Shown: positions 40,736-61,266 of the stretch, in pieces | Layout: every line of letters begins with the position of its first letter | Position numbering within the stretch: the stretch's first letter is position 1 | IMG/VR virus record: IMGVR_UViG_3300028559_000038 | Span: 1 to 64,000 of that record | DNA from: a virus | Direction: 5' to 3' (one strand) | Length of the DNA stretch: 64,000 bases | The notes under the pieces: generated by a model | The model's input: the letters and a program-made list of their open reading frames with translations, nothing else | Databases searched by the model: none | Told to the model about the DNA's origin: nothing | Made by a program: the position numbers and the translations under genes

Positions 40736-41335
40736 TTACTTAGTTTCCCCAAAGGGATCTCCCCAGTAAATATCTTCATACTTTAAACCAGGGTATGGAG
40801 ATTGGCCAACAGGAGCGTTCCAAAAATCAGAAAGAAAAAGATTGCCCTCTTCTATTAATGTAAATTCTCTTTGAAATTCTTCTGTTTCTGGAAAAATTAT
40901 ACAATCCCCAGCAATTAAATTTTTTGCTATTTTATAGTTTTTAAATTTAAAAACTCCGCCTTTATGGTTATCGCTCCACTTAACTATAGACCTAAAAACA
41001 TTTTTTGGTCTATCTGTTGAGAATTGCATTTCAATTTTTTTACCGCTGTGAGTTTTAGTTATGTAACTTTTCCCAAGAATTGGAGGATCATAGAATATTT
41101 TAGTTTGATTGCTGACGGCTTTTTGAATTTCAAAGACATATTTTTCAAATATTGATACAACTTCTTTGGGCATGTCTCCATATGTTGTAATGTCAAAATT
41201 AATTTGATCTTGACTAAATAGTGGGTCGTGGAGTGGGATGTGATCTTCTTTTGTATTAAATTTTACAGAATTAATAAATTCATCAATTAACTTTAAATCT
41301 TCTTTTGTAGCAACATTAATTATTTGATATGTCAT
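40736..41335 (-). CDS. Degenerate 2OG-oxygenase-like protein
   Basis: The 199-aa protein starts at ATG 41333-41335, overlapping the stop of the adenosyltransferase gene (ATGA). The segment FRSIVKWSDNHKGGVFKF followed by LIAGDCIIFPE matches the core of prolyl-4-hydroxylase-like oxygenases (strand, GG turn, then GD-IFP). However, the expected HxD is replaced by polar residues near EMQFSTDRP and no distal His is obvious. It may have lost catalysis or be a distant relative. It is the last gene of the cobalamin operon. Confidence 0.6.
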   Translation of the reverse strand: MTYQIINVATKEDLKLIDEFINSVKFNTKEDHIPLHDPLFSQDQINFDITTYGDMPKEVVSIFEKYVFEIQKAVSNQTKIFYDPPILGKSYITKTHSGKKIEMQFSTDRPKNVFRSIVKWSDNHKGGVFKFKNYKIAKNLIAGDCIIFPETEEFQREFTLIEEGNLFLSDFWNAPVGQSPYPGLKYEDIYWGDPFGETK

Positions 41336-41826
41336 GTTCTTGGAATCCATAATTTTTCGTTTCCTTTGCTGTGATACCTTGCCATAACAAATAATAAATC
41401 TGAAAGCCTATTTAAATATTTAGCAATATTTATATTGATTCCTTCTAGTTTCCAAACCTGGCGCTCTGCTCTTCTAACAATAGTTCTAGCGTTGTGTAGT
41501 GGTCCTGTAGGCAATATAAAAGAATGAAGTGGTTCTAGATATTCATTATAATCGTCTATAACATTTTCTAAATAAACAATTCTTTCTTCAGATATAGTTA
41601 TTGTTGGTGCTCCTGCAAGTTCTGCTCCTAAATCAAAAAGGTCACTTTGAATTCTATCCATAATGTCATTATGATATTCTATAGCCATTCCTATAGCAGA
41701 ATTTGCTTCATCTACCGCACCAATAGCCTCTATTAAATCGCTACTTTTATTTATTCTTTCGTTAGTAGCAGTTGATGTTTTTCCATCATCGCCAGTTTTT
41801 GTGTAAATACGAGTTAAATGAACCAT
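41332..41826 (-). CDS. ATP:cob(I)alamin adenosyltransferase (PduO type)
   Basis: The 164-aa protein has the full motif set of PduO-type adenosyltransferases: IYTKTGDDGKTS at the N-terminus, SDLIEAIGAVDEANSAIG in the first helix, IVRRAERQVWKLE for the nucleotide and cobalamin pocket, and KYLNRLSDLLFVMARY near the end. It transfers the adenosyl group of ATP to cob(I)alamin, making coenzyme B12. That is the cofactor needed by the class II ribonucleotide reductase encoded three genes upstream. The start overlaps the stop of a 54-aa membrane peptide (TAATG). Size and motifs are normal for the family. Confidence 0.93.
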   Translation of the reverse strand: MVHLTRIYTKTGDDGKTSTATNERINKSSDLIEAIGAVDEANSAIGMAIEYHNDIMDRIQSDLFDLGAELAGAPTITISEERIVYLENVIDDYNEYLEPLHSFILPTGPLHNARTIVRRAERQVWKLEGININIAKYLNRLSDLLFVMARYHSKGNEKLWIPRT

Positions 41827-41990
41827 TAGTGCCCCGTCAATGATCTCCAGATATCAATAGTAATATTATTTGCTAAATATAAACAAATTAAATTTAATGA
41901 TAACTGAACCATATATCCTAGTATTGCATTTTTCTTTTTTTGTATAGGAAACTCTATAACATTATTAAACTCTTTTTGTGCTAGTTTCAT
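41826..41990 (-). CDS. 54-aa membrane peptide in cobalamin operon
   Basis: The short frame starts at 41990, overlapping the stop of the DUF4430 gene (ATGA), and ends in a TAATG overlap with the adenosyltransferase start. It encodes a charged N-terminus, a Lys cluster (IQKKKN) and one hydrophobic segment (about residues 22-43: AILGYMVQLSLNLICLYLA). The overlaps at both ends show that it is a translated gene. It could anchor or couple the B12-related proteins at the membrane. I do not recognise a family. Confidence 0.75.
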   Translation of the reverse strand: MKLAQKEFNNVIEFPIQKKKNAILGYMVQLSLNLICLYLANNITIDIWRSLTGH

Positions 41991-42442
41991 GGAAACTTAA
42001 TCTCTCCATTATCTGAAAATACCAAACCAATAGAGTCACCAGGATTTAACTGTTGTTGATCTATGGCTAGTTGACCCCAACCCCATTCTTTTCTAGGAAA
42101 AGGAATAGTCTGTTTTTCTTTAATAATAACCGCCCAATATGCTTTTTCTGATGGCATAGTTTCACAAGATTCTAATTTTGCATCTGGCAAACCATTTACT
42201 CTACAAACAACAGATAGCCCATATTTTTTTGTTCCTTCAATTTCAAGATTGGCCATTTTTAAAACATCTAGGGCAATTGTTTTACCTGTCACATCTATAC
42301 ATTTCGTTAACTTTGCATTATTATCTAAAACTGTATAATCAATATATAAGTTAATACATTTAGACTCTTCTTTATTTATTAAAGACAAGCCTAAAAATAC
42401 TAATATAAAAATTGTTATAGATGCCCATATTCTTTTGATCAT
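41987..42442 (-). CDS. Membrane-anchored DUF4430/transcobalamin-like protein
   Basis: The 151-aa protein has an N-terminal membrane anchor or signal peptide (RIWASITIFILVFLGLSL), then an extracellular domain. The domain has the DUF4430-like order: TGKTIALDVLKMANLEIEG, then KKYGLSVVCRVNGLPDA, then EKAYWAVIIKE, then LNPGDSIGLVFSD. It also has paired cysteines (near VVCRVNG and LESCETMP). This fold is related to the cobalamin-binding beta domain of transcobalamins, and similar secreted proteins occur in actinobacteria. I infer cobalamin capture at the cell surface. AAGGAGAATA precedes the ATG, one gap after the RNR stop. Confidence 0.7.
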   Translation of the reverse strand: MIKRIWASITIFILVFLGLSLINKEESKCINLYIDYTVLDNNAKLTKCIDVTGKTIALDVLKMANLEIEGTKKYGLSVVCRVNGLPDAKLESCETMPSEKAYWAVIIKEKQTIPFPRKEWGWGQLAIDQQQLNPGDSIGLVFSDNGEIKFP

Positions 42443-42450
42443 TATTCTCC

Positions 42451-44481
42451 TTAGTTAGTTTTTATTTCACAATAATCGGTAGTACAGTACATCTCGCCTT
42501 GTGCTTCTAGATTATCTATACCATCATAGATTGCAGACCAGTCAATCTTTGCAATTTTACCAATATAAGATTCATACTCTTCTTTGGTAATTTCATTATA
42601 TGGTTGTTGTGGATAAACCTCATTTCCCATAGGCAAGAAAGAAACTGCTTTTAGTTGACCTTCATACATATGTAGTGCTGGGGCAACAAATTTTGATTCT
42701 GTTTCTTTATTAAAAGATAGGGTTACAGATACACCGTTATCAGACCAATATTTTTGAGCAGTTGCTGCCAAACCAATTTTTTCAAAAAGATTTACATCTT
42801 TTTCGGATCTTGTATGTCCAGATGCAATTGGGAAATATACTACTGAAGTATTTGCTGATACAAGGTCTGCCTCAACTTTATACCCTGCTGCTTTAAACAA
42901 ATGAAGCATTGGATCTGTATTTCCAAATCTAATTGCTCTCATGTAATATGCGCCTCCAGGCCCCCAGTGAACTCCAGGGGTAGCGCCAGAAAGCAATGAT
43001 ACAGAGCCAGAAGGCTTGACGGTGGTCACACGAATTGATTCACGTACACATAACCATTCTGAATATGAATGGTCATATTGACGAATTTTATTGTAGCCAT
43101 CATCCATCCACTCACGTACTGTTGGCATACCTTTTGAATCAGCAAAAGATGCAATACCAGTCAAAGATGTTCCAATACGTCTATTACGTTGCATAATTCC
43201 ATTTGTCTGTTGCCAATGCGTAGGAACTAGCGTTACTGTTTTGCCATATAAATAGGCAAACTTTAGTGTTCTTAAAAAGTCTTCTTTGTCTTCATGTCTA
43301 TTTAAATGAACTTCAACAAGAGTGCATAGTTCATAAGATTCTAATGGCTGCTCTGCACAAGGATTAAACCCCATAACACGATAATCTTTGCCATCTGCTG
43401 GATCTGCAAGTCGACCATAATTTCTTGAAATATCTAGCCAAATAAATCCTGGCTCTCCATTGTTTACAATTAAGTCAACATAATCTTCATATTTTGTTCC
43501 TACTTCAGCCGAAATAGAGTTATTAGACATCCAAGCCCAGCCTGGTTTTTTTGGATCATAAGAATTTCTTTCTGGAAATATTTCTGGATTTTTTAAATTA
43601 CTAAATATTTCATCAGTTGGAGACCCCAAAGCAAGAGTTGCAGAACGACGAACATTGCCAGCAACCACACAAGTTCCAATTAAATTTACAATATCAACAA
43701 TGGCACGACTATCTAGCATTTCTCCTGCCCTAGAACCTATTACATTGCGTATACGGCCATGTAAATCTTTTAATGGTCCTGGACCACTAGCCACGCCTCC
43801 AAACCCTTTAATTGGGGCACCTAGGGGCCTTATAAGGTCATAATTAAACTCCTGTATGGATTGGTTTGGTCTTAAAAATGAGTTAATTAATAATCTTACA
43901 GACTCTACCCAACCTTCACGAGTATCTGGAATTTCATATATTGATGGTGGCTCTGTAGGAGAAAATATTAACATTTCTTTATCTTGCCCAAGGGTATCAA
44001 ACCCTACCCCTATTCCTAACATTAATGCATCCATTACCCACGCAAACAGAGCACCTGGGTCATTGCGATCAAGGTCTCGGGTAGACACCATAGCGCAATT
44101 TTGCAACGCTGAAGAATTACGTTTTTCCATAGTCATTGGTGTGCCAAAAGCCCACAAGCCTCGGCCAGGTGGAGTCCATTTAAGATTAAACATTCTTTCG
44201 TAAGCCTCTTGTGCTGATTTCTGAGCCTTATAGTCATTCCAAGGAAGACGGTTTTCTTTGGCATGATTTTTTTGTACTGAGTACATACCCTCGATTACAC
44301 GCTTACAAACCTCATACCATCTTTCTTTAGTTCCATCTTCTTTCATACGAGAGTATGTTCGAATAAAGGTGATCTCTCCTAATGAGTTAGATGCAGCATC
44401 TTTAAATCCAAAGGGTGCTTTAAGTTTTTGATAACTCTCTATAAAATCTGATGATAATTTAAAAGAAAAAAAGTCCGACAT
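42451..44481 (-). CDS. nrdJ: Class II (adenosylcobalamin) ribonucleoside-triphosphate reductase
   Basis: The 676-aa protein starts at ATG 44479-44481 behind TTGGAGAT; an ATG five codons earlier overlaps that Shine-Dalgarno. Active-site motifs are present: ALQNCAMVSTRD (first redox Cys), FNPCAEQPLESYELC (radical Cys and catalytic Glu, N-x-C-x-E), and the C-terminal dithiol MYCTTDYC. These match the monomeric B12-dependent reductase type of Lactobacillus leichmannii. It reduces ribonucleotides to dNTPs without oxygen and needs adenosylcobalamin. A TGATACAAT element at 44513-44521 is the probable operon promoter. Confidence 0.92.
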   Translation of the reverse strand: MSDFFSFKLSSDFIESYQKLKAPFGFKDAASNSLGEITFIRTYSRMKEDGTKERWYEVCKRVIEGMYSVQKNHAKENRLPWNDYKAQKSAQEAYERMFNLKWTPPGRGLWAFGTPMTMEKRNSSALQNCAMVSTRDLDRNDPGALFAWVMDALMLGIGVGFDTLGQDKEMLIFSPTEPPSIYEIPDTREGWVESVRLLINSFLRPNQSIQEFNYDLIRPLGAPIKGFGGVASGPGPLKDLHGRIRNVIGSRAGEMLDSRAIVDIVNLIGTCVVAGNVRRSATLALGSPTDEIFSNLKNPEIFPERNSYDPKKPGWAWMSNNSISAEVGTKYEDYVDLIVNNGEPGFIWLDISRNYGRLADPADGKDYRVMGFNPCAEQPLESYELCTLVEVHLNRHEDKEDFLRTLKFAYLYGKTVTLVPTHWQQTNGIMQRNRRIGTSLTGIASFADSKGMPTVREWMDDGYNKIRQYDHSYSEWLCVRESIRVTTVKPSGSVSLLSGATPGVHWGPGGAYYMRAIRFGNTDPMLHLFKAAGYKVEADLVSANTSVVYFPIASGHTRSEKDVNLFEKIGLAATAQKYWSDNGVSVTLSFNKETESKFVAPALHMYEGQLKAVSFLPMGNEVYPQQPYNEITKEEYESYIGKIAKIDWSAIYDGIDNLEAQGEMYCTTDYCEIKTN

Positions 44482-44512
44482 GTGTGTAATCTCCAATTGA
44501 TTTAAGTAACTA

Positions 44513-44521
44513 ATTGTATCA
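44513..44521 (-). promoter_or_regulatory. Extended -10 promoter TGATACAAT of the RNR/cobalamin operon
   Basis: TGATACAAT lies about 31 nt upstream of the RNR ATG, with TTGGAGAT between. It follows a hairpin (44537-44571) that probably ends the upstream unit. No cobalamin riboswitch-length leader is present: the leader would be only about 25 nt. Confidence 0.55.
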
Positions 44522-44571: not shown

Positions 44572-44713
44572 GAAATTTTGAAACTGCATTGTTATTTGGC
44601 TTGCACCTGCTACATACATTATACGTTATTTTTGTATAAGGGCAAAATATTTGTTCAATTTTATGTCCAAGTATGGCACAAAGAATTTTTTTATAATGGA
44701 ATAAACGGAGCAC
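44567..44713 (-). CDS. Zinc-binding miniprotein, GTG start
   Basis: A 48-codon frame begins at GTG (44711-44713) inside the end of the upstream oxygenase gene. It carries LCAILGHKIE, then IFCPYT, then NVCSRCKPN. The Cys-x4-Gly-His and Cys-x2-Cys arrangement is a recurrent pattern of phage and bacterial zinc miniproteins. GGAA lies a few bases upstream. The exact start is uncertain. Function unknown. Confidence 0.55.
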   Translation of the reverse strand: MLRLFHYKKILCAILGHKIEQIFCPYTKITYNVCSRCKPNNNAVSKFQ

Positions 44714-45299
44714 GAGTTCCAGTGTTTTCAATAAGAACGCTTAATGGAAGGATATTGTACGCAATTGTAATTCTATGAGTATCTTGATTCCACTCCCCTG
44801 GAGAGTGAGGAAAACCATTCTTAGCAACAATCAAAGTATTGTTTTTGTTTATTTGATCAAATATTTTATTATCTACATCTTTATAGTAAGTTATGGATGG
44901 CTCTGCATTTACGCAATAATACCCATGAAAAGTCATGGGGTTCGGAAAATGGTCATGATACCTTAAATTTTCTTTTGATACTCCAATGTCGGTTTTAACT
45001 GGATAATAGTTAAACCATCCATGAATCATATATTTTTGTTCATCAAAATCTATACCATAATAACTGCAATTCTCTTTTGTTAATTCTAAAACACCTTTTT
45101 TTAGATCAAAAATTTCTTCATTATAAAAATTAAAAATATTATAAGTCTCCCAATGATTTCCTGGATCATAAAATTTTGTATCTTTGTCACTATAATTATT
45201 TAATTTCATTTCTTCGTATTTATACTTTAAATATTTATTTAAGTTGTCTAAATTTAAAGATAGACTTTTTGTAAAAATTTTAAGACTATTATTTTCCAT
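44691..45299 (-). CDS. 2OG-Fe(II) oxygenase, FHGYY family, copy 3
   Basis: The 202-aa protein is the third of three tandem paralogues. It has LRYHDHFPNPMTFHGYYCV, then NAEPSITYYKDV, then KNGFPHSPGEW and THRITIAYN. His residues in YHDH and FPHS are candidate iron ligands, and the Arg of HRIT is a candidate 2-oxoglutarate ligand. It differs from the other two by TFHGYY instead of WFHGYY and GFPH instead of GHPH. The ATG follows the stop codon of the upstream paralogue directly. Substrate unknown. Confidence 0.72.
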   Translation of the reverse strand: MENNSLKIFTKSLSLNLDNLNKYLKYKYEEMKLNNYSDKDTKFYDPGNHWETYNIFNFYNEEIFDLKKGVLELTKENCSYYGIDFDEQKYMIHGWFNYYPVKTDIGVSKENLRYHDHFPNPMTFHGYYCVNAEPSITYYKDVDNKIFDQINKNNTLIVAKNGFPHSPGEWNQDTHRITIAYNILPLSVLIENTGTRAPFIPL

Positions 45300-45959
45300 T
45301 TATAACACATTCCATATGTTTGGATCGACATAGGCTAATTGTTTTGCTGGCGTAATGTCGTAAGCAATAGTTATCCTTGGTTTTTCTTCAAACCAATCAT
45401 CTCTTCCGTGAGGATGTCCTGTTTCTGAAATAATTGCTCTATTATTTTTATTAATATTTTCAAATATATTGTTTTCATCTCTATCTATTTTATAAAAAGT
45501 TGATGAAGGTTCTGCGTTTACGCAGTAATATCCATGAAACCATGGTACTCCTTGCCCATCTGAATGATCATGAAAATGGTATGGATTTTGTTTTGGATTT
45601 ACTCCTCCAAACGCATAAAATTTATCTACTGGAGATTCGTCTAAATTAAACCATCCATGAATAAAATATTGTTCTTTTTCAAAGTTAATTTCATAATATT
45701 CGCATGCAGTCTTTGTCAATTCTCTTAACGCTAACTGTAAATTATAAATTTCTGGATTAACAAAAGAAAAAATATTATAGTCTTTTACGCCTATCCTAGT
45801 CATAGCCCCTGGCAAAATTTTGAATTCTGCTAACTTTTCTTCTTTTAAATTTAAAACATTTTCTTTTAAAATTTTACTGTCCATCGTTATTAAAAAATCA
45901 TAAAGTTTTTGCAAGTCATTTTCTAAAAAAACATCAAAAAACTTATGTGGTTTTTTCAT
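45300..45959 (-). CDS. 2OG-Fe(II) oxygenase, FHGYY family, copy 2
   Basis: The 219-aa protein starts at ATG 45957-45959, overlapping the stop codon of copy 1 (ATGA). Motifs are YHFHDHSDGQGVPWFHGYY, CVNAEPSSTFYKI, SETGHPHGRDDW and PRITIAYDI. The His-x-His near HDH and the His of GHPH are candidate metal ligands, and the Arg of PRIT would bind 2-oxoglutarate. It is highly similar to copy 1, so the two look like a fairly recent tandem duplication. Confidence 0.78.
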   Translation of the reverse strand: MKKPHKFFDVFLENDLQKLYDFLITMDSKILKENVLNLKEEKLAEFKILPGAMTRIGVKDYNIFSFVNPEIYNLQLALRELTKTACEYYEINFEKEQYFIHGWFNLDESPVDKFYAFGGVNPKQNPYHFHDHSDGQGVPWFHGYYCVNAEPSSTFYKIDRDENNIFENINKNNRAIISETGHPHGRDDWFEEKPRITIAYDITPAKQLAYVDPNIWNVL

Positions 45960-46600
45960 GCTAATGGAATCCAATGTTGCTCCCACTCGTGCATTATTCC
46001 TCTAAATGGAATTACGTCGTAAGCAACTGTAATTCTTGGCCCATTCCAATCCCAATCACCCATAGCGTGTGGGTGTCCTGTTTCAGATAAAATAGCACGA
46101 TTGTTTTTATTTTCAATTGTTGCATTTTTGTCAAATACCTTGTAATGTGTTGATGAAGGCTCTGCGTTTACAGAATAATACCCATGAAACCATGGAGCAC
46201 CTTCTCCGCCGTGCTCGTGCCAATCTAACTTTCCACCATGAGTATAATTTACGTTAAACCAACCTTGAACCCAAAAATTTTCTTTTTCAAAATCAATTTT
46301 ATAGTATTCGCATGCTTCAAGAGTCATAGATCTAACCGACTTAAAAAGATTATGAATTGCTGGATGATAAAATTGAAAAACGTTATATTTGTTCCATTTA
46401 GAAGTGGTTATGCTACCTGAAGAGTCCCAAGCAGTTTTTTGATCATTGTCATTTTTTAATATTTGTCCAGATTCAATTCTTTCATATTGTTGCAAAAGAT
46501 AAGAAGATAGATCTTGAGTGTCGTTATTTAAATTTCTTTCAAAAAAACTATGAGGTATGATACTTTTACTTGTATTTTGAACATTATTATTGTCGTACAT
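45956..46600 (-). CDS. 2OG-Fe(II) oxygenase, FHGYY family, copy 1
   Basis: The 214-aa protein is the first gene of a three-gene tandem array. Motifs are LDWHEHGGEGAPWFHGYY, SVNAEPSSTHYKV, SETGHPHAMGDW and PRITVAYDV. The family resembles the 2OG-FeII-Oxy-5-like proteins that occur in phages and marine bacteria. AAAGGAAGTT precedes the ATG and TGATACAAT lies upstream at 46631-46639. Such phage oxygenases may modify proteins or cell-surface glycans; the target is not visible here. Confidence 0.78.
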   Translation of the reverse strand: MYDNNNVQNTSKSIIPHSFFERNLNNDTQDLSSYLLQQYERIESGQILKNDNDQKTAWDSSGSITTSKWNKYNVFQFYHPAIHNLFKSVRSMTLEACEYYKIDFEKENFWVQGWFNVNYTHGGKLDWHEHGGEGAPWFHGYYSVNAEPSSTHYKVFDKNATIENKNNRAILSETGHPHAMGDWDWNGPRITVAYDVIPFRGIMHEWEQHWIPLA

Positions 46601-46677: not shown

Positions 46678-47391
46678 TTATCTAAATGGTGGGGAGAAAC
46701 CAAATGGTGTGAATCCGAATGCTCCGAATGGAGTGAATCCGAATGCTCCAAATGGGGTGAATCCGAATGCTCCAAATGGTGCAAAACTAAAGGTAGTTGT
46801 TACGCTTGAAGATTGAGCAGATGTTCCTGAGTTACCATTAGCATTTGTTGCATAAACAGTGTATGTTTGTGCTGTTCCTGCTTCTTGACCAACTGCTACT
46901 GATGTAGATGCAGTTGATCCAGATTTACCATCACTTGATTGCCAAGTGTAACCAGTTATTGCTGATCCGCCATCTGCTGGTGCTGACCAGGAAACGTCAT
47001 CGCTATTTGCGCTTGGAGATGAAGCACTTGGTGCTGAAGGAGTTGCTGGCACAGTTGTTGCAGTGATACTACTAGATGCAGATGATGCTGGAGAGTTTCC
47101 AACAGCGTTGGTTGCAACTACTGTAAATGTGTAGGCTGTGTTTGATTGTAGACCAGTTACAGATATTGGAGAAGATGCTCCTGAAGCAGTATACGATCCT
47201 GGAGAGGATGTTACTGTAAAGGATGTAGCAGCAGGTGAATTTGCTGGCAAGGTAAATGTTACATCGGCCCGTCCATTATTAAATGCACGACCTGATCCAA
47301 CGTTTGTTGCTGATACTGATGTTGGTGCGTGTGGCTCCAAAAAGTCATTTGACGCCTGGGACTTTCTACCTGATTTTTTACCTGCTGCCAT
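46678..47391 (-). CDS. FN3-domain protein with Phe-Gly-Pro repeat tail
   Basis: The 237-aa protein has a basic N-terminus (AAGKKSGRKSQASN), two fibronectin type III-like domains (about residues 18-107 and 108-200, with LQSNTAYTFTVVATNAVGN and AQTYTVYATNANGNSG), and a tail of 8-residue repeats (FTPFGAFG) ending FSPPFR. The repeats are encoded by a 24-bp tandem repeat. The same tail occurs on a PASTA protein at 56045-56380. It lies just downstream of a fibre gene, so it is probably a fibre-associated or capsid-surface binding protein. Confidence 0.75.
   Translation of the reverse strand: MAAGKKSGRKSQASNDFLEPHAPTSVSATNVGSGRAFNNGRADVTFTLPANSPAATSFTVTSSPGSYTASGASSPISVTGLQSNTAYTFTVVATNAVGNSPASSASSSITATTVPATPSAPSASSPSANSDDVSWSAPADGGSAITGYTWQSSDGKSGSTASTSVAVGQEAGTAQTYTVYATNANGNSGTSAQSSSVTTTFSFAPFGAFGFTPFGAFGFTPFGAFGFTPFGFSPPFR
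46700..46787 (-). repeat. 24-bp tandem repeat encoding FTPFGAFG units
   Basis: About three and a half imperfect 24-bp units encode the repeated FTPFGAFG octapeptide at the C-terminus of the FN3 protein. Units differ by single bases at codon third positions, so the peptide is selected or recently duplicated. Approximate boundaries. Confidence 0.75.
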
Positions 47392-54318: not shown

Positions 54319-54861
54319 TTGAAAGAAAATATAGCAGTTTTTTGTTTGGCAGTTTTGTTGGCAGTTTCTACTGTTTTTAATGCTAGTAATGCTCAAGCAA
54401 TAAAACAGCAAGAAATGATAAAAAATATATCTATACCAAAGTTATTGAAGAAGTCGGATCATATGAAAGTTCTTGAAAAATATAGCGAGGCAGAATCTTT
54501 AAATCAAAAGCAGTGTAAAGAATTGCTATCTGCAGTTGGGTTTGAGGGCAAGGCTTTAAAAATGGCTTGGACCGTAGCGCAAAAAGAGTCAAATTGTAGA
54601 CCAAAGGCCATAAACAATAATACAAAAACTGGAGATAACTCCTATGGCATATTTCAAATTAACATGATTGGTGATCTTGGAGAGGCTAGGCTAGAAAAGT
54701 TTAATTTAGAGTTTAAAAAAGAACTTTTAGATCCTGTGACTAATGCGAAAATTGCCTACCATATGAGTAAACAAGGTAAGGATTGGTCATCTTGGACATA
54801 TTTAGACGGGGAAAGATTTAAAGAGTTGTGGCTAGAGTTTCCTGATTCTAAAAGTAAGTAA
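54319..54861 (+). CDS. Secreted lysozyme/lytic-transglycosylase-like protein
   Basis: The 180-aa protein starts at TTG (54319-54321), 7 nt after AGGAGG; a longer frame upstream would begin inside the promoter. The N-terminus is a signal peptide (KENIAVFCLAVLLAVST, then NASNAQA). A C-terminal domain has WTVAQKESNCRP (catalytic Glu) and GDNSYGIFQINM, as in SLT/goose-type lysozyme folds, and YHMSKQGKDWSSWT. It would cleave peptidoglycan outside the membrane, possibly as a Sec-exported endolysin. Its 3' end overlaps the convergent gene by 14 bases. Confidence 0.82.
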   Translation: MKENIAVFCLAVLLAVSTVFNASNAQAIKQQEMIKNISIPKLLKKSDHMKVLEKYSEAESLNQKQCKELLSAVGFEGKALKMAWTVAQKESNCRPKAINNNTKTGDNSYGIFQINMIGDLGEARLEKFNLEFKKELLDPVTNAKIAYHMSKQGKDWSSWTYLDGERFKELWLEFPDSKSK

Positions 54862-55462
54862 CTGCAACATACTTAGTTCCAGAGGTTACTGGTAAGTGTT
54901 TATGCTTATATTCTTCAGTAGAAGGATAAATTAAAACCCCTCCTTTAGCAATTTTAATTAAATCGTTACCGACTCTATTTTCAAATTGAACCTCTCCACC
55001 AGTGTAATTATCGTTTAAAAAAACAATAACTGTATAATTATTTTGTATTTCATTTCTGCTCACATCAGAGTAAAAATTATCGGTATTTAAGTCTTCGCAA
55101 ATAGACCATTTTTTTATTTCTGTAATCTCTAAGTCAAATCTACGTATATATTCAACAATGAATGGCAAAATATTTTGGTTTAATAAATTTCTTAATTTAC
55201 CTTTTTCTTTTCCTCCATTATCAAAAATATTATTATTGGATTTACGCCACCAATTAAATAAATTGTCAAAGTTAGGTAAATAAAAAATTTTATTGTTTAA
55301 AGTTAAATCGGTATCTTGATTATTTTTGTTGGAAGACAACTCCCAAACATTTCTGTTTATTGTTTTGTTACACAAATTTTCTATCAATGATACGTAATCT
55401 GTTTCCTTGTTTTCATAATACAAAACAATTTTATCGTCTAATGTTGTTATGTTATCTACCAA
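54848..55462 (-). CDS. Degenerate P4H-like 2OG oxygenase
   Basis: The 204-aa protein starts at TTG (55460-55462), about 9 nt after GGAGGCG. The C-terminal half has the prolyl-hydroxylase core pattern NNYTVIVFLNDNYTGGEVQF, then GGVLIYPSTEEYKHKHLPV. The expected HxD before it is absent (CEDLNTDNFYSD in its place), although a His cluster at KHKH could hold the distal ligand. It is probably an inactive or altered member. It is similar in style to the degenerate protein at 40736-41335. Confidence 0.65.
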   Translation of the reverse strand: MVDNITTLDDKIVLYYENKETDYVSLIENLCNKTINRNVWELSSNKNNQDTDLTLNNKIFYLPNFDNLFNWWRKSNNNIFDNGGKEKGKLRNLLNQNILPFIVEYIRRFDLEITEIKKWSICEDLNTDNFYSDVSRNEIQNNYTVIVFLNDNYTGGEVQFENRVGNDLIKIAKGGVLIYPSTEEYKHKHLPVTSGTKYVAVTYF

Positions 55463-56034
55463 GAAGAATCGCCTCCAGCAAATAAAATAAAGTTTTCTGT
55501 AAAATAAAAATGTCCGCCCACGATATTTATTGAAAACGAATTACTTTCTAACAACTCTTCTGTACTATCAAAATCTTGATAATCAAATATTTTGAACTCT
55601 TCCAAATCAAGTGTTGAAAAATCTTTTTTTAATTTTACAATTTTTATATTAGTTAAACCTTTAATATGTGGAACAGTCCAAGATTTATAAAAATCTAAAA
55701 TTGGAGGATTCTCTTTTGAAAAAACTTTTCCTTCTGACATTGCTGTTGCAATGTATTGCCCATGATGAACAAATTGATTTCCCATTTTTACAAATTTTCC
55801 TCTAGATTCTTTGTCTAGATAAACTGAGTATACAGTTGCTTCGCTTAATTGAAAATTGTCTACTTGTTTTTTTTCTTTAATATATTTTTCATAAAAATCT
55901 ATAGAGTCTTTTATGTCTTCATCTAAAATTTTTAAAGAAAGAACTTTATCTCCAACTTTTAAATCTTCAGCGTTCACTAAAGTTTTATTAGATAAATAAA
56001 TTTTTTCACTAAGTGGAATTGCTCCTAAAAACAT
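55456..56034 (-). CDS. Hint-like (intein-fold) protein without splicing residues
   Basis: The 192-aa protein resembles the Hedgehog/intein fold. An N-terminal block A/B-like region reads AIPLSEKIYLSNKTLVNAED then LKVGDKVLSL. The C-terminal strand is SFSINIVGGHFYFTENFILF. Inteins begin with Cys or Ser and end with His-Asn; here the first position is Ala and the end has no HN, so splicing is unlikely. TAGGAGAT precedes the ATG. It lies next to fibre genes, so a structural role is likely. The fold is inferred from pattern. Confidence 0.55.
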   Translation of the reverse strand: MFLGAIPLSEKIYLSNKTLVNAEDLKVGDKVLSLKILDEDIKDSIDFYEKYIKEKKQVDNFQLSEATVYSVYLDKESRGKFVKMGNQFVHHGQYIATAMSEGKVFSKENPPILDFYKSWTVPHIKGLTNIKIVKLKKDFSTLDLEEFKIFDYQDFDSTEELLESNSFSINIVGGHFYFTENFILFAGGDSSW

Positions 56035-56044
56035 TTTTTATCTC

Positions 56045-56380
56045 CTATCTAAATGGTGGAGAAAAAATAAATGCTGGGGTAAATGAAAATACAGGAGTAA
56101 ATCCAAATGGGGTAAATCCAAACGCTCCAAATGGGGCAAATGAAAAAACATTGTTTACTAAGTTTACGGTAGTCCCTAGGGCTGCTGAATCTCCTGCTGC
56201 AATGCTTTGAGTTTTGATAGTATTATTTAGTGCACTATCTGCTGTATTTTCGTTTGTTGTTACAAAGTTAAATCCTGCACTTGATAGATTTGATTCTGCC
56301 GTTGATTTTGACAAACCAACTACATTTGGAATTGTGTTCCTTCTAAATATTTTATTTCCACGTCCAGGGTTTTTTGCCAT
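56045..56380 (-). CDS. PASTA-domain protein with Phe-Gly-Pro repeat tail
   Basis: The 111-aa protein starts at ATG 56378-56380, overlapping the stop of the gene upstream (TAATG). A PASTA-like domain (about residues 11-75) has IPNVVGLSKSTAESNLSSAG and AAGDSAALGTTVNLV. The tail FAPFGAFGFTPFG then ends FSPPFR, as in the FN3 protein at 46678-47391. PASTA domains bind peptidoglycan or beta-lactam-like groups. The shared tail suggests a common attachment or assembly function. Confidence 0.75.
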   Translation of the reverse strand: MAKNPGRGNKIFRRNTIPNVVGLSKSTAESNLSSAGFNFVTTNENTADSALNNTIKTQSIAAGDSAALGTTVNLVNNVFSFAPFGAFGFTPFGFTPVFSFTPAFIFSPPFR

Positions 56381-57000
56381 TATGCAGTCAAATCTCCCAT
56401 TGCTAACCAAGTGTTTGTATCACGCTTGATTAATGTTGCACTAGACCATCTTGTTCTTAATTTTAATCCAGGAGTTGAATCCACAGTGACTCCTTCTGCG
56501 CCAACTAAAGTTACTTGAGAGGTACCAGTCTGAAGCACATCTATAGCAGTTCCAATCGGGAAAGCCACTGAACTATTGAGTGGAATAGTTAAATTTCCAC
56601 CAGAAGACATCTCAATCATTTTAAAAGAGTCTGAAATAGTTAATGTATAAGAAGATGATTGCTGATTAAATGTATATACTGGATCTGTTATAGACTGCCA
56701 AACGGATCCATCAAAAAATTGAAAATCATTAATTGTGTTTCCAACAGAGTCTTGTTTTATAAAAATTAAAGTTCCATATACTGGAGATGGTATTGCTGCT
56801 GTGACTGCAGATGGATTTAAAAATATATTAAAATTTTTAGATATAGTCGTAGATGATAAAGTAACTGGATTATCAAATGTTTGTGCTGCTGTCCAAGTGT
56901 ATGCTGAAGCGGTATTTACATCTCCTGCAATTCTATACCATTGATTGGTTCCTTCATCATAAACATATGCTGGCCTTGAAGTGGAATTAATCGCTGCCAT
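56380..57000 (-). CDS. Tail fibre-like protein with shared C-terminal domain
   Basis: The 206-aa protein has a C-terminal domain (about residues 110-206) related to that of the 475-aa fibre at 47415-48842. Shared features are SYTLT, LTIPLNSSVAFPIGTAIDV, LKLRTRWSSATLIKR and the end GDLTA. The N-terminal part holds RPAYVYDEGTNQWYRIAG. It overlaps both neighbours by one base. It is followed by a Phe-Gly-Pro tail protein exactly as the other fibre is. Confidence 0.72.
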   Translation of the reverse strand: MAAINSTSRPAYVYDEGTNQWYRIAGDVNTASAYTWTAAQTFDNPVTLSSTTISKNFNIFLNPSAVTAAIPSPVYGTLIFIKQDSVGNTINDFQFFDGSVWQSITDPVYTFNQQSSSYTLTISDSFKMIEMSSGGNLTIPLNSSVAFPIGTAIDVLQTGTSQVTLVGAEGVTVDSTPGLKLRTRWSSATLIKRDTNTWLAMGDLTA

Positions 57001-57443
57001 TAGTTCACCCGAATAAATGCGCTAGTGTTAGAATCATATACATACATTTCTAGGGGAGATGTTCCCTTTTTTACCCAGATTAATCCATCTATAAGGTTTG
57101 ATGTTGGCGTTGCATTTTGATAAATAGATGTTGCAGATGCTGGAGAACCAGTTGCTAAAACGTTTGACTGCACCCATAAAAATCCGTCTACAGGTGATGT
57201 TGGCTCTGCATCTTGAACCTCTGCTGCTGCTGCTGGATTTAATAAATTGTCATCAATTTGTGTTTGTAGATCATGAAGAGAGTATGCCAAAGATGGATTT
57301 GTTAATAATGCTGTGTTTGTATTGTTAACGTCATATAAACTAGATCCGTAATGATATAGTCTTAATGCTGCCTGAATGTCTGCAGAATCATCATAACCAG
57401 GAATTTTGGTTGGATATACGTTACCAATGTTTTCAGAAGCCAT
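57000..57443 (-). CDS. Virion structural protein
   Basis: The 147-aa protein contains a helical N-terminal part (ADIQAALRLYHYGSSLYD, AYSLHDLQTQIDDNLLNPAA). Two short repeats follow, DGFLWVQSN and DGLIWVKKG, as in fibre-associated proteins. GGTGGTGAGTA precedes the ATG, with TGATATAAT at 57462-57470. It overlaps the next gene by one base. Confidence 0.65.
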   Translation of the reverse strand: MASENIGNVYPTKIPGYDDSADIQAALRLYHYGSSLYDVNNTNTALLTNPSLAYSLHDLQTQIDDNLLNPAAAAEVQDAEPTSPVDGFLWVQSNVLATGSPASATSIYQNATPTSNLIDGLIWVKKGTSPLEMYVYDSNTSAFIRVN

Positions 57444-57461
57444 TACTCACCACCTTTGCTC

Positions 57462-57470
57462 ATTATATCA
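57462..57470 (-). promoter_or_regulatory. Extended -10 promoter TGATATAAT
   Basis: TGATATAAT overlaps the stop codon region of the 200-aa gene and lies about 18 nt upstream of the 147-aa gene start, with GGTGGTGAG between. Confidence 0.5.
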
Positions 57471-58070
57471 TGACTCCTCGGTTTGTAACTGAGTGATAGT
57501 AATTGAAAGATGAACAGTTACGGTTCCAGACAAATTAATCCAAGTCCCAGAATCTAATTCCGCAGCCTTTAAAGAAATTGAAAGTGTATCACTACTGGCT
57601 CCGGTAATAGACACCGCAGTTATAGATGCAGCAACTGGATTTTGATATCCAACAGAAAAGTTTATTAAAAAATTTTCTTCAGTAAGAATTGATTGGCTAT
57701 TCTGAACTATATCTGCAATTGGAATTAAAATTGTAGATGTTCCGCTTACAAAAGTTTTTTCAATAAGTCTAGAATAAATTGTTGGATTTAAATTTAAGAC
57801 TGGGAACCAAGTGTTAGATCCTGGAGCAGATATATATTGATACATATATGAGTATTCAGAACCAATAGCGTTGTTAATGTATAGATCACCAGCAATAATT
57901 TCTTGATTAAAAATTGTTTCTTGAACTGTAAATGCATTTGGCTCACCAGTGCCAACAAAAACTTTATTTCCACGAATTCCTGTTGCTCCAATATCTAGTT
58001 GAACATTTACAACTGGAGGAGAACCTAAGACAGTTACATCTTCTGTATTTACTAAAACATCTACCGCCAT
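57468..58070 (-). CDS. Virion/baseplate protein
   Basis: The 200-aa protein is beta-rich with VQLDIGATGIRGNKVFVGTG at the N-terminus and a C-terminal domain (SILTEENFLINFSVGYQNPV, ISITGASSDTLSIS) that resembles fibre domains. Its start overlaps the stop codon of the BppU-like gene (TAATG). Role inferred from neighbours. Confidence 0.62.
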   Translation of the reverse strand: MAVDVLVNTEDVTVLGSPPVVNVQLDIGATGIRGNKVFVGTGEPNAFTVQETIFNQEIIAGDLYINNAIGSEYSYMYQYISAPGSNTWFPVLNLNPTIYSRLIEKTFVSGTSTILIPIADIVQNSQSILTEENFLINFSVGYQNPVAASITAVSITGASSDTLSISLKAAELDSGTWINLSGTVTVHLSITITQLQTEES

Positions 58071-58420
58071 TAAACTGCTCCGGTTATATCATCTGTTACA
58101 GTAACAGTTCCAGTTATAATGGTAATTATGTTTGTGGCACTAGAACTGATTTGAACGTCATATACATATGTTCCTGCTGCTAAAGTTCTACCCACCGCTG
58201 GTAAAATTGTACAAACTATAGTATCGTTGGTTGTATTAATAATTGCCTGTGCTGTAGTTTTTACTCCAGTAGTTCCTCGTGCTGTAGCAATTGTGTAAGC
58301 ACCGTTTCCAAGATAAGAGTCTAAACTAAATGCCGTTCCATCAGAATTTTTAGGGGACACAACAAACTCATGAGTATCTCCACGATAGTAATTAAAATTA
58401 TAAGTACCTGGAAAAGCCAT
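58070..58420 (-). CDS. BppU-like N-terminal domain protein, copy 2
   Basis: The 116-aa protein starts at ATG 58418-58420 behind AAGGAGACTT. A longer frame would run through the tRNA gene and is rejected. It has NFNYYRGDTHEFVVSPKN, then DVQISSSATNIITIITGTVT, in the same order as the paralogues at 53249-53659 and 59352-59729. These Ig-like domains attach baseplate proteins in other siphoviruses. Confidence 0.7.
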   Translation of the reverse strand: MAFPGTYNFNYYRGDTHEFVVSPKNSDGTAFSLDSYLGNGAYTIATARGTTGVKTTAQAIINTTNDTIVCTILPAVGRTLAAGTYVYDVQISSSATNIITIITGTVTVTDDITGAV

Positions 58421-58435
58421 AAGTCTCCTTTTTTC

Positions 58436-58506
58436 CTTTGGGTGCGGGAATCGAACCAGCGTTACCCGCTTCGGAGGCGGGGGTCCGACCATTAGACGAA
58501 CCCAAA
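58436..58506 (-). tRNA. tRNA-Arg (anticodon CCG)
   Basis: The cloverleaf has an acceptor stem TTTGGGT/ACCCAAA, a D arm GTC...GAC, an anticodon stem CCCGC/GCGGG with loop CTCCGAA (anticodon CCG) and a T arm GCTGG-TTCGATT-CCCGC with one mismatch. Total is 70 nt plus a discriminator G. CCA is not encoded. It lies between two virion genes, 9 nt after TGGTATAAT, so it has its own promoter. It reads CGG codons. U1-A72 at the acceptor end is unusual. Confidence 0.9.
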
Positions 58507-58515
58507 ACTATTATT

Positions 58516-58524
58516 ATTATACCA
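58516..58524 (-). promoter_or_regulatory. Extended -10 promoter TGGTATAAT for tRNA
   Basis: TGGTATAAT ends 9 nt upstream of the tRNA 5' end. The tRNA would thus have almost no 5' leader. Confidence 0.55.
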
Positions 58525-59244
58525 TTAAGAAACAGAAACTGTTATGCTTTTTAAAATCAATTCAGCAGGAAAATCTGTTCTAATTTGTGGTTTGGCGTAG
58601 GATTTAAAATCTTTATCCTCTAAATAAAATGTTTGACTAATAGAAAAATCATACACATTTTGATACTTTAGACTTCCAACAAAATTAGAATGACCTACAT
58701 TATTTTTTGTAAACAATGTCCGAATCCAAATGTCTGTGTTGCTAGACTGAGTAGATATCTCTACTTCATACAGTACATCAATTTTAGCCCCTACATTTAA
58801 ACTTAGAAAATTTAAAGCCCTTATATCATTTCCCCACAAACTACCACTATCTTTTGGCAAAAAATTATTCACATCATTCTTGCTATTAAGATATAAAGAA
58901 ACCCAACCGCTATCCCCTTCTGTAATACCAAGAATAAAAGGTTTGATATCGCTATTATAATATTTGCCCCATCCAGGTGTTTGTCCAGAAGCAGATATGC
59001 CATCTATTCCTGGTTTTCCACGATCTCCTCTTGCTCCGTTTACTCCAGGATCCCCTTTTGGTCCCTGCTCTCCAGTGTCACCTTTTTCACCTTTTAATCC
59101 CTGAGGTCCTTGAGGTCCTGGCGTTGGTATATGTATTGCTTGAACAATTTGTGGCTCAGGGTTATTACTTTGTGCTTGAATTACTTGCTCAATATACTTA
59201 TCTTTGGTATTAAACGGAGTTGATATATTTTTACTTACAGCCAC
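58525..59244 (-). CDS. Collagen-like fibre protein
   Basis: The 239-aa protein starts at GTG (59242-59244) behind TAGGAGTG. It has a helical N-terminus, a run of about 14 G-x-y triplets (GPQGPQGLKGEKGDTGEQG onward, about residues 51-88), and a beta-rich C-terminal domain (about 95-239, GDSGWVSLYLNSKNDVNN). Collagen-like triple helices are typical of trimeric phage fibres. The C-terminal domain would be the receptor-binding or tip domain. Confidence 0.85.
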   Translation of the reverse strand: MAVSKNISTPFNTKDKYIEQVIQAQSNNPEPQIVQAIHIPTPGPQGPQGLKGEKGDTGEQGPKGDPGVNGARGDRGKPGIDGISASGQTPGWGKYYNSDIKPFILGITEGDSGWVSLYLNSKNDVNNFLPKDSGSLWGNDIRALNFLSLNVGAKIDVLYEVEISTQSSNTDIWIRTLFTKNNVGHSNFVGSLKYQNVYDFSISQTFYLEDKDFKSYAKPQIRTDFPAELILKSITVSVS

Positions 59245-59253
59245 AATACACTC

Positions 59254-59352
59254 CTATTTTTTTATTTTTATTGTTTTGGTTGTTCCAGAAGCAATTATTC
59301 TAATAACGTCTGGCAAGTTTGTTTTTACGTTGCTAACTTTAATGACTGCCAT
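59254..59352 (-). CDS. 32-aa peptide coupled to BppU-like gene
   Basis: The frame starts at ATG 59350-59352, overlapping the stop of the 125-aa BppU-like gene (TAATG), and ends just before the fibre gene. The product is a beta-type, basic peptide (AVIKVSNVKTNLPDVIR then TTKTIKIKK). Its position mirrors the 66-aa gene after the paralogue at 53249-53659. Translation is likely; function is unknown. Confidence 0.6.
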   Translation of the reverse strand: MAVIKVSNVKTNLPDVIRIIASGTTKTIKIKK

Positions 59353-59729
59353 TACAAACCTACACTCACATCGCCAAAAACAGATATAGTTCCAAGAATA
59401 GGCGTCCAAATTGTTTCATCTATGTTAATCTGTAAATCAAAAGATAATTCAGCAACTACTCCACCATATGTAGTTCCCCAAAACGATGTAGTTTCGGCGG
59501 GAGCGGTAATTACAATATAGCCATCAAAAGCCTCTACCTCTAACTCATCTATAATATCTGTTTTACGATCATATGCGCTTGCAACGAATTCCCAGTCGTC
59601 AATATCCAAATATGTGGTTTCGTCGTCATTTAAAAAATCAACCCTTACTGTGGAGGTATCCCCTCGGACCACACTCCATCGTATAGTAACGGGGTCAGCC
59701 CCAAAAATCTCAGGTTCACAGGAAGACAT
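59352..59729 (-). CDS. BppU-like N-terminal domain protein, copy 3, leaderless
   Basis: The 125-aa protein has VTIRWSVVRGDTSTVRVDF, then IDDWEFVASAYDRKTD, then VVAELSFDLQINIDETIWT. It is the third copy of the Ig-like BppU-type domain in this window. TGGTATAAT lies 6 nt before the ATG, and GTGACA lies 17 nt farther upstream, so the promoter is nearly consensus and the mRNA leaderless. It begins the fibre and glycan transcription unit. Confidence 0.7.
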   Translation of the reverse strand: MSSCEPEIFGADPVTIRWSVVRGDTSTVRVDFLNDDETTYLDIDDWEFVASAYDRKTDIIDELEVEAFDGYIVITAPAETTSFWGTTYGGVVAELSFDLQINIDETIWTPILGTISVFGDVSVGL

Positions 59730-59735
59730 AACAAG

Positions 59736-59764
59736 ATTATACCATTAAATATATAAAATGTCAC
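59736..59764 (-). promoter_or_regulatory. Promoter (GTGACA-17-TATAAT), leaderless
   Basis: On the minus strand GTGACA (plus 59759-59764) and TATAAT (59736-59741) are spaced by 17 bp. The -10 is extended by TGG and lies 6 nt before the ATG. This is the best full promoter on the minus strand. Confidence 0.7.
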
Positions 59765-59957
59765 CTCTGATTTTAATGTCCCCAAGGGTCAAAACAATGA
59801 TTATGTTAAGATTGAAAAATATAACAATTTTATAAAGTTTTTAAAATTTGTCTCAATATTTAAGATTGATCCCCACGATCTAAATTTTATAGTGTATACT
59901 TAAAAATATATAAGAAAAAAGAACACCTTTAAACCTTTAATATATTATATATATAGA
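59765..59957. other. AT-rich noncoding gap
   Basis: About 190 bp lie between the membrane-protein gene (59958-60212) and the promoter of the BppU-like gene. It is AT-rich and has no good frame. It contains two short copies of AAGGTTTAAAGGT-like sequence and a GATC-GTGGG-GATC repeat, but no clear terminator or tRNA. It may hold the end of the upstream transcript or a small RNA. Confidence 0.4.
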
Positions 59958-60212
59958 CTATTTTTTATTTGCTATGTAATTTAACAATATCTCGTACATT
60001 TTATCTAACTTAATTTCTATTTTTTTATTGTCTGAGTCCACTTCATTAACCTGAACTTCTAGTTTTGAGATTTGGTCCTTTATCGATGTTCCAGAATTTG
60101 GTTTAAGTTCGTTTAAATAATGTTTTACTAACCACTTGATTGTAAGAACAATTCCTGATATAATTGTGAATACAGAAATTATAAGTGCTGTTGTGGTAGA
60201 GGCTAATTCCAT
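59958..60212 (-). CDS. Small membrane protein with coiled coil (possible holin)
   Basis: The 84-aa protein has one N-terminal membrane segment (about residues 8-29: TALIISVFTIISGIVLTIKW) followed by a coiled coil (IKDQISKLEVQVNEVDSD, then KKIEIKLDKMYEIL). This layout is common for phage holins and for spanin-like or anchor proteins. TGTTATAAT lies 9 nt before the ATG. It is near, but not next to, the lysozyme-like gene. Holin activity is inferred from layout. Confidence 0.6.
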   Translation of the reverse strand: MELASTTTALIISVFTIISGIVLTIKWLVKHYLNELKPNSGTSIKDQISKLEVQVNEVDSDNKKIEIKLDKMYEILLNYIANKK

Positions 60213-60221
60213 AATAGATTA

Positions 60222-60230
60222 ATTATAACA
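60222..60230 (-). promoter_or_regulatory. Extended -10 promoter TGTTATAAT
   Basis: TGTTATAAT ends 9 nt before the ATG of the small membrane protein. It lies in the divergent gap before the plus-strand DHH-type gene. Confidence 0.5.
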
Positions 60231-60267
60231 TTTTTTTAAGGAGAAATTAAAAATTAACAACGCTATC

Positions 60268-61011
60268 TTGGAAACGCTGCAGAAGTCTCAGAAAATTATT
60301 ATCTCGCCAGATATTGATGGTTTTATGTCGGCGGAGTTATTGAATCGTAAGTATGGTTCGAAAATTGTTGGTACGTATGATAAAAGTTTATTATGTCTTT
60401 CTGACGATGTAAAGCCGGAAGAATGTCTTTTTGTCGATTGTGACATGAATACAAAAGAATTCGTTTCGGTCGGAAATCATATGAGAGTTCAAAATGACAA
60501 TATGGCTGATTCGTCGTTTAATCCAAATCGTTTTTGGAATACAAAAACATATACTGCGAAATTTCCATTTGCAACTTGTTTTTTAATTTCGGCGGCAATA
60601 GAGATTGATCTTGATCTGTATGACCTCAAACGCATGGCTCATGCTGACTCAACACTAACTAATATGGATAATTACAGCAACAACATGCGTAACTGGTCAA
60701 AGAGGCTCAGGGATATAGATGTAAAACCAATTATTGAACAAACCTTAGATATTTCAGATATACGAGAGAAGTATCCAAACCAATCATTTTCATCAAAAAG
60801 GTTTGGTAAGCAAAGGTATTTAGATACACTAAATAAGGCCCTAGAAAGCGAGGGGATGAACTATTCTCCAATCACCAATGGTATCAAGTACATGTGTGAT
60901 ATGGTTGGCTTAAACACCCTTACAAGGTATATGTGCGATATAATATCTTATGCGGAGATATATTCAGGTGAGTATAGTGTTACGTATAACCAGGAGATAG
61001 AATGGAAATAA
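60268..61011 (+). CDS. DHH-family phosphoesterase-like protein
   Basis: The 247-aa protein has a DHH-type N-terminal domain: IIISPDIDGFMSAELL (motif I, D-x-D-G), LFVDCDMNTKE (motif II) and SVGNHMRV (motif III, where GNHM replaces DHH). Such proteins cleave oligonucleotides or nucleotides with Mn2+. The C-terminal half has many aromatic and acidic residues. The listed TTG start lacks a nearby Shine-Dalgarno; AAGGAG at 60238-60243 would suit an ATT at 60253-60255 in the same frame, adding five residues. Confidence 0.65.
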   Translation: METLQKSQKIIISPDIDGFMSAELLNRKYGSKIVGTYDKSLLCLSDDVKPEECLFVDCDMNTKEFVSVGNHMRVQNDNMADSSFNPNRFWNTKTYTAKFPFATCFLISAAIEIDLDLYDLKRMAHADSTLTNMDNYSNNMRNWSKRLRDIDVKPIIEQTLDISDIREKYPNQSFSSKRFGKQRYLDTLNKALESEGMNYSPITNGIKYMCDMVGLNTLTRYMCDIISYAEIYSGEYSVTYNQEIEWK

Positions 61012-61076
61012 TGGTATTAGGTTTAATTATGTTTGGTGTTTGCCTTATGGCTGTTATTAAGAAATATGTCAGATGA
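61002..61076 (+). CDS. 24-aa membrane peptide
   Basis: An ATG at 61002-61004 lies 5 nt after AGGAG (60992-60996), a strong Shine-Dalgarno. The frame encodes MEIMVLGLIMFGVCLMAVIK then KYVR, one membrane helix with a basic end. It overlaps the DHH-type gene by 10 bases and the next gene by 11 bases. A small hydrophobic peptide with a good ribosome site is a candidate holin, antiholin or membrane regulator. Confidence 0.6.
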   Translation: MEIMVLGLIMFGVCLMAVIKKYVR

Positions 61077-61266
61077 TGTTAAGCCTTGGGATTTGTTTAA
61101 TCCTAATCAGCCAAAAAGCACAGAAGACCTTGTTAAGTCCCGCTTAGAAATTTGTAAGTCTTGTGAGTACTTTAGACCTAAGACAGAAACTTGTCGTAAG
61201 TGTGGATGCTTTATGAAATTAAAAACAACTTTAGTAAATGCTAAGTGCCCTATTGGTAAATGGTAA
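61066..61266 (+). CDS. DUF6171-like zinc-binding protein
   Basis: The 66-aa protein starts at ATG 61066-61068. It has EICKSCEYFRPKTETCRKCG then CFMKLKTTL, ending KCPIGKW. Six cysteines in C-x2-C / C-x2-C-x-C / C arrangement and the terminal CP-GKW match the DUF6171 pattern found in many phages. It probably binds zinc. Function is unknown. A longer frame would run back through the membrane peptide and is less likely. Confidence 0.75.
   Translation: MSDDVKPWDLFNPNQPKSTEDLVKSRLEICKSCEYFRPKTETCRKCGCFMKLKTTLVNAKCPIGKW

Follow-up and report, generated by a model that had tools for sequence, protein, structure and literature searches.

How might a phage whose DNA synthesis presumably depends on vitamin B12 secure this cofactor in a host that is presumed unable to make it? 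The question is raised by the IMG/VR virus record IMGVR_UViG_3300028559_000038, which spans 65.7 kb and of which positions 1 to 64,000 were analysed here (the window, 64,000 nucleotides). On the minus strand of this window, five successive open reading frames (ORFs) had been read in a first-pass annotation, made from the sequence alone, as one phage operon for cobalamin capture, activation and use. We recovered all five ORFs at the same place, separated by overlaps or by a gap of 8 nt. Four of them form a core which is probably a cassette for the capture, activation and use of B12 during infection of freshwater Actinobacteria that are auxotrophic for B12, with Nanopelagicales as the most likely hosts. 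The genes and their junctions are the following:

42451..44481, minus strand: predicted monomeric class II, adenosylcobalamin (AdoCbl)-dependent ribonucleoside-triphosphate reductase (RTPR), the ribonucleotide reductase (RNR) of the cassette, 676 aa; ATG at 44481, stop at 42451
41987..42442, minus strand: transcobalamin beta-domain-like protein with a predicted membrane anchor (beta protein), 151 aa; starts 8 nt past the RNR gene
41987..41990, minus strand: ATGA stop/start overlap of the beta protein and transmembrane (TM) peptide genes, seen in the sequence
41826..41990, minus strand: predicted single-TM peptide, 54 aa; ATGA overlap with the beta protein gene
41824..41828, minus strand: TAATG stop/start overlap of the TM peptide and adenosyltransferase genes; one-base overlap kept in 31/31 complete cassettes
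41332..41826, minus strand: PduO-type cob(I)alamin adenosyltransferase (ATR), 164 aa; TAATG overlap with the TM peptide gene
40736..41350, minus strand: fifth gene, oxygenase-like product, 204 aa; 19-nt overlap with the ATR gene

The two enzymes of the core could be assigned to known families, as the first-pass annotation had proposed. The RNR scored 343.0 bits against the RTPR model TIGR02505 (curated cut-off 340.05) and 111.8 bits against PF17975, and the RTPR 1l1l was its sole sequence match in the PDB. Its residues C129, C375, C386, C666 and C671 align with the five functional cysteines of 1l1l, namely the active-site thiyl cysteine, the redox pair and the C-terminal pair. Family membership thus argues strongly for a monomeric, AdoCbl-dependent RTPR. 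Similarly, the ATR exceeded the cut-offs of both PF01923 (163.6 bits, cut-off 24) and TIGR00636 (149.2 bits, cut-off 108.45). It carries the N-terminal TKTGDDGxT motif and the D-E...F...R..RRAER core, with D39, E40, F103, R114, R118, R119, E121, R122, N139 and R140 all present; aligned to the Mycobacterium tuberculosis enzyme (MtATR), the core residues were invariant in the 11 phage rows (alignment A3). The active-site roles of these motifs are presumably those of LrPduO and MtATR. The latter (2g2d, 6wgs) was the best PDB match (E 3e-32) and is the closest solved homolog; the core motifs are common to both, but the phage enzyme has trimmed loops and lacks about 30 residues by comparison. From this strong family membership, the phage ATR can be expected to adenosylate cobalamin.

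The second gene was more difficult to classify. Searches of family libraries gave no convincing profile match for the beta protein, a PDB sequence search gave no credible one, and Pfam DUF4430 (PF14478) was matched neither by 12 family members (up to E 5) nor by the window protein (up to E 1). Because of this lack of a DUF4430 sequence match, the protein is not filed under that family, and the DUF4430 part of the earlier label "DUF4430/transcobalamin-like" was dropped. A comparison of folds was used instead, and here the transcobalamin part of the label stood. An AlphaFold2 model built from 77 aligned sequences (pLDDT 83.8, core confident) superposed on the beta domain of transcobalamin. The 14 highest-scoring structures were all transcobalamin, intrinsic factor or 3u7z, with Z of 10.1-11.1 over 94-99 residues, and the next unrelated fold followed at Z 6.0. 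The model also has the strand pair after the helix that is expected for the transcobalamin-like SLBB clade (PMC1796856). The phage protein resembles animal transcobalamin and intrinsic factor in this predicted beta-grasp fold, but differs from them in being viral and apparently membrane-anchored, in having no alpha-toroid half and in its low sequence identity of 16-19%. Phage and cellular members share four invariant cysteines (Cys 29, 48, 80 and 93). Since a hydrophobic segment at about residues 5-23 fits an N-terminal membrane anchor, the beta domain is likely located outside the cell. We propose that the protein may serve in extracytoplasmic cobalamin capture.

The beta protein is accompanied in every readable locus by the TM peptide. 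The latter contains a single TM segment at about residues 22-40, and as positive charges at the N-terminus precede this segment, an N-in/C-out orientation is predicted. Its C-terminus, DIWRSLTGH, is conserved (alignment A1), and the last 10 codons showed a pN of 0.032 and a pS of 0.333, i.e. they are kept as protein. The charged N-terminus and the conserved C-terminus suggest that the peptide is a partner of the beta protein at the outer face of the membrane; a role of the terminal histidine is speculation.

To what extent are these genes linked in other phages? Viral relatives were gathered by the beta protein (32 loci; 182 with an alignment) and by the ATR (best 80 of 237 matches), and linkage was counted in 36 distinct loci remaining after the removal of identical ATRs, each having 2.9 kb or more of upstream sequence. 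An uninterrupted run of RNR, beta protein, TM peptide and ATR, in that order, was present in 31/36 loci, a count that leans to close relatives because the best 80 of 237 ATR matches were used. In all of the complete cassettes (31/31), the beta protein gene adjoins the RNR gene and the TM peptide stop and the ATR start share one base. Purifying selection was observed for all four genes, with a median dN/dS (ratio of nonsynonymous to synonymous substitution rates) of 0.056 for the ATR, 0.09 for the RNR, 0.25 for the beta protein and 0.27 for the TM peptide. RNR, beta protein, TM peptide and ATR form a conserved cassette, with an arrangement beyond chance.

More distant loci vary in composition. 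For example, L030-L032, L338, L347 and L371 encode an RNR that is 62-64% identical and a host-like ATR. In L360 (2980-4899) and L363, a divergent RTPR occupies the RNR slot before the beta protein, TM peptide and ATR; it shows 27% identity to the window RNR (tblastn) and reaches 299 bits against TIGR02505, below the 340-bit cut-off. L105 and L107 have beta protein, TM peptide and ATR next to replication genes, with no detectable RNR in these records, which are possibly fragments. The ATR is missing in L361, L364 and L374, which retain the beta protein, and L101-L103 have an ATR and no beta protein. These divergent loci show replaceable parts around one theme. The linkage put forward for the window recurs over many related contigs, including the lineage with the divergent RTPR, and the run of five genes joined by overlaps or tight spacing is present on the minus strand as described. 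A single promoter for the operon, as also claimed, is unsupported, because promoter-like sites are no commoner in the cassette region than in shuffled sequences (16 found, 20.2 expected). Furthermore, the window contained no cobalamin riboswitch at the gathering score, which places the phage gene copy outside a cobalamin-riboswitch regulon.

Cellular relatives of the beta protein provide an indication of its function. An initial scan of genomes with the beta alignment was negative, and relatives emerged only in a hidden Markov model (HMM) search of whole genomes. This search identified homologs in 10/201 genomes from the order that includes Ca. Planktophila versatilis (Nanopelagicales) and in 38/200 genomes of another actinobacterial family, some of the homologs with a lipobox-like motif. 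A closer sample gave 14 homologs in Nanopelagicales (acI), the group with the nearest cellular relatives of the phage protein. In 13/14 cases a cobalamin-class riboswitch lies directly upstream of the homolog, at a distance of 52-74 nt from its start in the eight cases measured. The Nanopelagicales homolog stands alone behind this riboswitch, between an aldo/keto reductase gene and gcvT (L189-L196, L283-L295), and the same aldo/keto reductase is the neighbour of SCO2322 in relatives. In a Micrococcales metagenome-assembled genome (L188/L217), the operon consists of riboswitch, alpha/alpha toroid, beta homolog and CbiQ, the T component of an energy-coupling factor (ECF) transporter, an order reminiscent of a transcobalamin whose two halves are encoded separately, next to the transporter. 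Other actinobacterial secreted homologs (L304, L306) carry an anchor-like segment at the C-terminus; a cobalamin riboswitch lies some 1.2 kb upstream of them and probably heads their operon.

In genomes lacking the homolog, the riboswitch precedes a protein of the SCO2322 family (NF040672) in 3/4 cases read, with CbiQ adjacent in at least L226. SCO2322 was found in 0/10 genomes with the homolog versus 127/191 without it (Fisher p 3e-5); the two families exclude each other, and in the genomes read both occur behind the same type of riboswitch. NF040672 did not match the phage beta sequence in natural or permuted form, and when permuted sequences were scanned against NCBIfam, neither the phage nor the Nanopelagicales proteins gave a match, and those of Microbacteriaceae type gave a partial one only. 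The hhalign score between beta protein and SCO2322 rose from 39 to 48 when the sequence was permuted at the natural cut, and did not exceed 40.3 when six other cuts were used. This gives a modest suggestion that the SCO2322 family (L226, L229, L231, L250-L279), several members of which were read behind AdoCbl riboswitches, is a circularly permuted form of the transcobalamin-beta-like domain. A literature search on SCO2322-SCO2325 found no paper. The riboswitch-linked cobalamin ECF operons of actinobacteria resemble the phage locus in a homologous or related domain, there placed behind an AdoCbl riboswitch, but neither a riboswitch nor toroid or ECF genes are part of the phage cassette.

In the tree of beta proteins, the phages form one group (93), the Nanopelagicales another (93), and the two stand together (99 in the Shimodaira-Hasegawa-like approximate likelihood ratio test, SH-aLRT). 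A careful ATR tree placed all 15 phage ATRs together, weakly supported (44/78), inside a clade of freshwater actinobacteria. A split of the phage ATRs into two independent captures had appeared in a quick tree only, and this claim was dropped. By homology, both the ATR and the beta protein look host-derived, and the most likely hosts appear to be freshwater Actinobacteria of the Nanopelagicales (acI). Genomes of acI bacteria have been described as devoid of B12 synthesis and as containing ECF modules preceded by cobalamin riboswitches (PMC5301498). The phage type of RTPR occurred in 0/201 genomes of the Nanopelagicales order. The three presumed hosts examined encode a class II NrdJ (1547-1566 bits); therefore, host and phage RTPR both need AdoCbl for DNA precursors. 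One genome (G024; L230, L234) carries a class Ib NrdE beside a second AdoCbl-like riboswitch as well as a second large, NrdJ-sized RNR, which suggests B12-controlled switching of the RNR class.

How could the cassette work in such a cell? The beta protein, held by its N-terminal helix with the domain outside, would bind cobalamin in the manner of the transcobalamin beta half, and the co-conserved TM peptide would probably take part in this binding. A host translocator would then carry the captured vitamin across the membrane, where the ATR could convert it to AdoCbl for the phage RTPR and possibly also for the class II NrdJ of the host. Lacking a riboswitch, the phage gene should escape feedback by AdoCbl, so that capture would go on even while the host gene is repressed, which might benefit the phage.

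Several observations weigh against this proposal. Transcobalamin holds B12 between its alpha and beta domains, and the phage has no alpha toroid. No CbiQ-family ECF gene was found in G014 and G016, both of which encode a beta homolog. The hosts are assigned from gene homology rather than from CRISPR or infection, and the three steps are not obligately linked, because some related phages have no RNR or no ATR. Among the functions discussed, the intracellular steps (ATR and RNR) are best supported; the dN/dS of the ATR is far below that of the beta protein, and in L101-L103 an ATR occurs in the absence of the beta protein. All this would fit an activation of the host's own B12 for the phage RNR, with the beta protein and TM peptide acting otherwise at the envelope. 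They could, for example, block superinfection by masking a host B12-uptake protein that serves as phage receptor; phages are known to exploit B12 receptors, BtuB for example, in this way. We nevertheless consider such a division of roles rather unlikely: the beta gene lies beside the RNR gene in every complete cassette and is kept where the ATR is absent (L361, L364, L374) or the RNR replaced (L360, L363), and its homologs in the hosts are genes behind cobalamin riboswitches, a setting more in keeping with uptake than with exclusion.

The ligand itself may also be questioned. SLBB-fold domains can bind ligands other than B12 (PMC1796856), and the beta protein had no credible sequence match to Pfam DUF4430 or the PDB. 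It could accordingly capture a different molecule, with the riboswitch link being indirect and the cassette a mixed nucleotide-metabolism block. To this we attach little probability, since B12 carriers lead the fold matches with Z values far above the rest, and the homologs lie behind cobalamin riboswitches both in Nanopelagicales and, at the distance of an operon, in L188, L304 and L306. That the genes are passengers of host origin with little effect on infection seems very improbable; the host-derived appearance of ATR and beta protein and the frequency of auxiliary genes in phages speak for it, but all four genes are under purifying selection, the beta protein has 182 viral relatives, and gene order and overlaps are conserved. 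Altogether, the cassette is best read as a module of host origin, without riboswitch control, in which captured B12 is adenosylated and passed on to the RNR. The reading of the first-pass annotation is in this respect borne out for the four-gene core by the transcobalamin-like fold, the riboswitch-linked homologs, the recurrent linkage and the conserved residues of ATR and RNR. A more specific version of it, which we put forward tentatively and hold to be somewhat short of probable, is that beta protein and TM peptide form a virus-made cobalamin-binding complex at the cell surface. Being riboswitch-free, this complex would raise the B12 uptake of infected auxotrophs above that of healthy cells, and on-site conversion to AdoCbl would serve viral DNA synthesis. 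The outward WRSLTGH tail could complete the binding site and even provide a histidine ligand to cobalt.

In addition, we compared the cassette with known phage systems. In a phage collection of 50,697 records, 1,195 records matched the cassette RNR and none matched the beta protein. The collection yielded no credible phage ATR; 13 matching records were not inspected individually and none was counted as a relative. An ATR match within the stretch 54603-61142 of CAKLQH020000002.1, named as an Acinetobacter phage, was rejected, as the surrounding trp genes, btuB and fatty acid desaturase gene look like a bacterial chromosome, and another match, an unannotated fragment marked UNVERIFIED, was likewise not counted. 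A viral structure library contained no credible match to the beta domain. The earlier statement that no described phage operon combining all three steps is known agrees with these searches, which found no equivalent in phage records, viral structure models or literature, and no cultured phage with the gene set in the collections covered; this reflects the collections searched and is not proof of absence.

Class II RNR phages, namely cobaviruses, Thermus phages and mycobacteriophages, use an AdoCbl-dependent RNR for the supply of deoxyribonucleoside triphosphates (PMC6775973, PMC6459318), and the cassette phages resemble them in this respect. Cobaviruses have been argued to need B12-producing hosts, whereas the cassette phages presumably infect B12 auxotrophs, and the two closest cultured-phage RNR loci inspected had no B12 genes annotated beside the RNR. 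Virus-encoded B12-related genes are also represented among the auxiliary metabolic genes (AMGs) for cobalamin biosynthesis (cobA/cobS/cobT). A study of wastewater viruses includes a cobA-named adenosyltransferase in its list of cofactor-biosynthesis AMGs, and this part of the study describes no capture-activation-use operon (PMC11183165). Each enzyme of the cassette comes from a known family; the combination, together with a viral transcobalamin-like domain, is new as far as we found.

Phages with a class II RNR were previously described as dependent on B12-making hosts, and here phages of presumed auxotrophs appear to bring genes for acquisition and activation of the vitamin themselves. Since the likely acI/Nanopelagicales hosts are among the most abundant freshwater bacteria, infection could alter the flow of B12 in lakes. 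Moreover, the analysis points to a so far unrecognised cellular gene in a set of streamlined acI genomes, the homolog behind the cobalamin riboswitch, in place of which most relatives have SCO2322. Its identification makes B12 uptake by acI directly testable.

The fifth gene lies outside the conserved cassette, because it is carried by a subset of loci only, and it was rejected as an operon component for this reason. The model of its product (pLDDT 67) has a double-stranded beta-helix fold and matched prolyl hydroxylases (Foldseek E 1.8e-5, Z about 11-12), and no HxD...H metal triad was seen, as judged by eye, in the barrel strands of a 10-row alignment. The earlier description as a degenerate oxygenase-like protein therefore applies to fold and metal site, and its place in the operon does not extend to the conserved unit; the gene is best viewed as an optional accessory with a predicted 2-oxoglutarate (2OG)/Fe(II)-dioxygenase fold and a degenerate metal site. 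Three tandem related genes of oxygenase-like appearance (202, 228 and 214 aa) are located upstream of the cassette at 44691-46600; two of them gave weak matches to phrog_2696, and in some of the relatives, too, they precede the cassette. Further along the window, a Fibronectin type III protein with a C-terminal tandem FTPFGAFG repeat is encoded at 46678-47391, and one tRNA-Arg (CCG) gene is located at 58435-58507.

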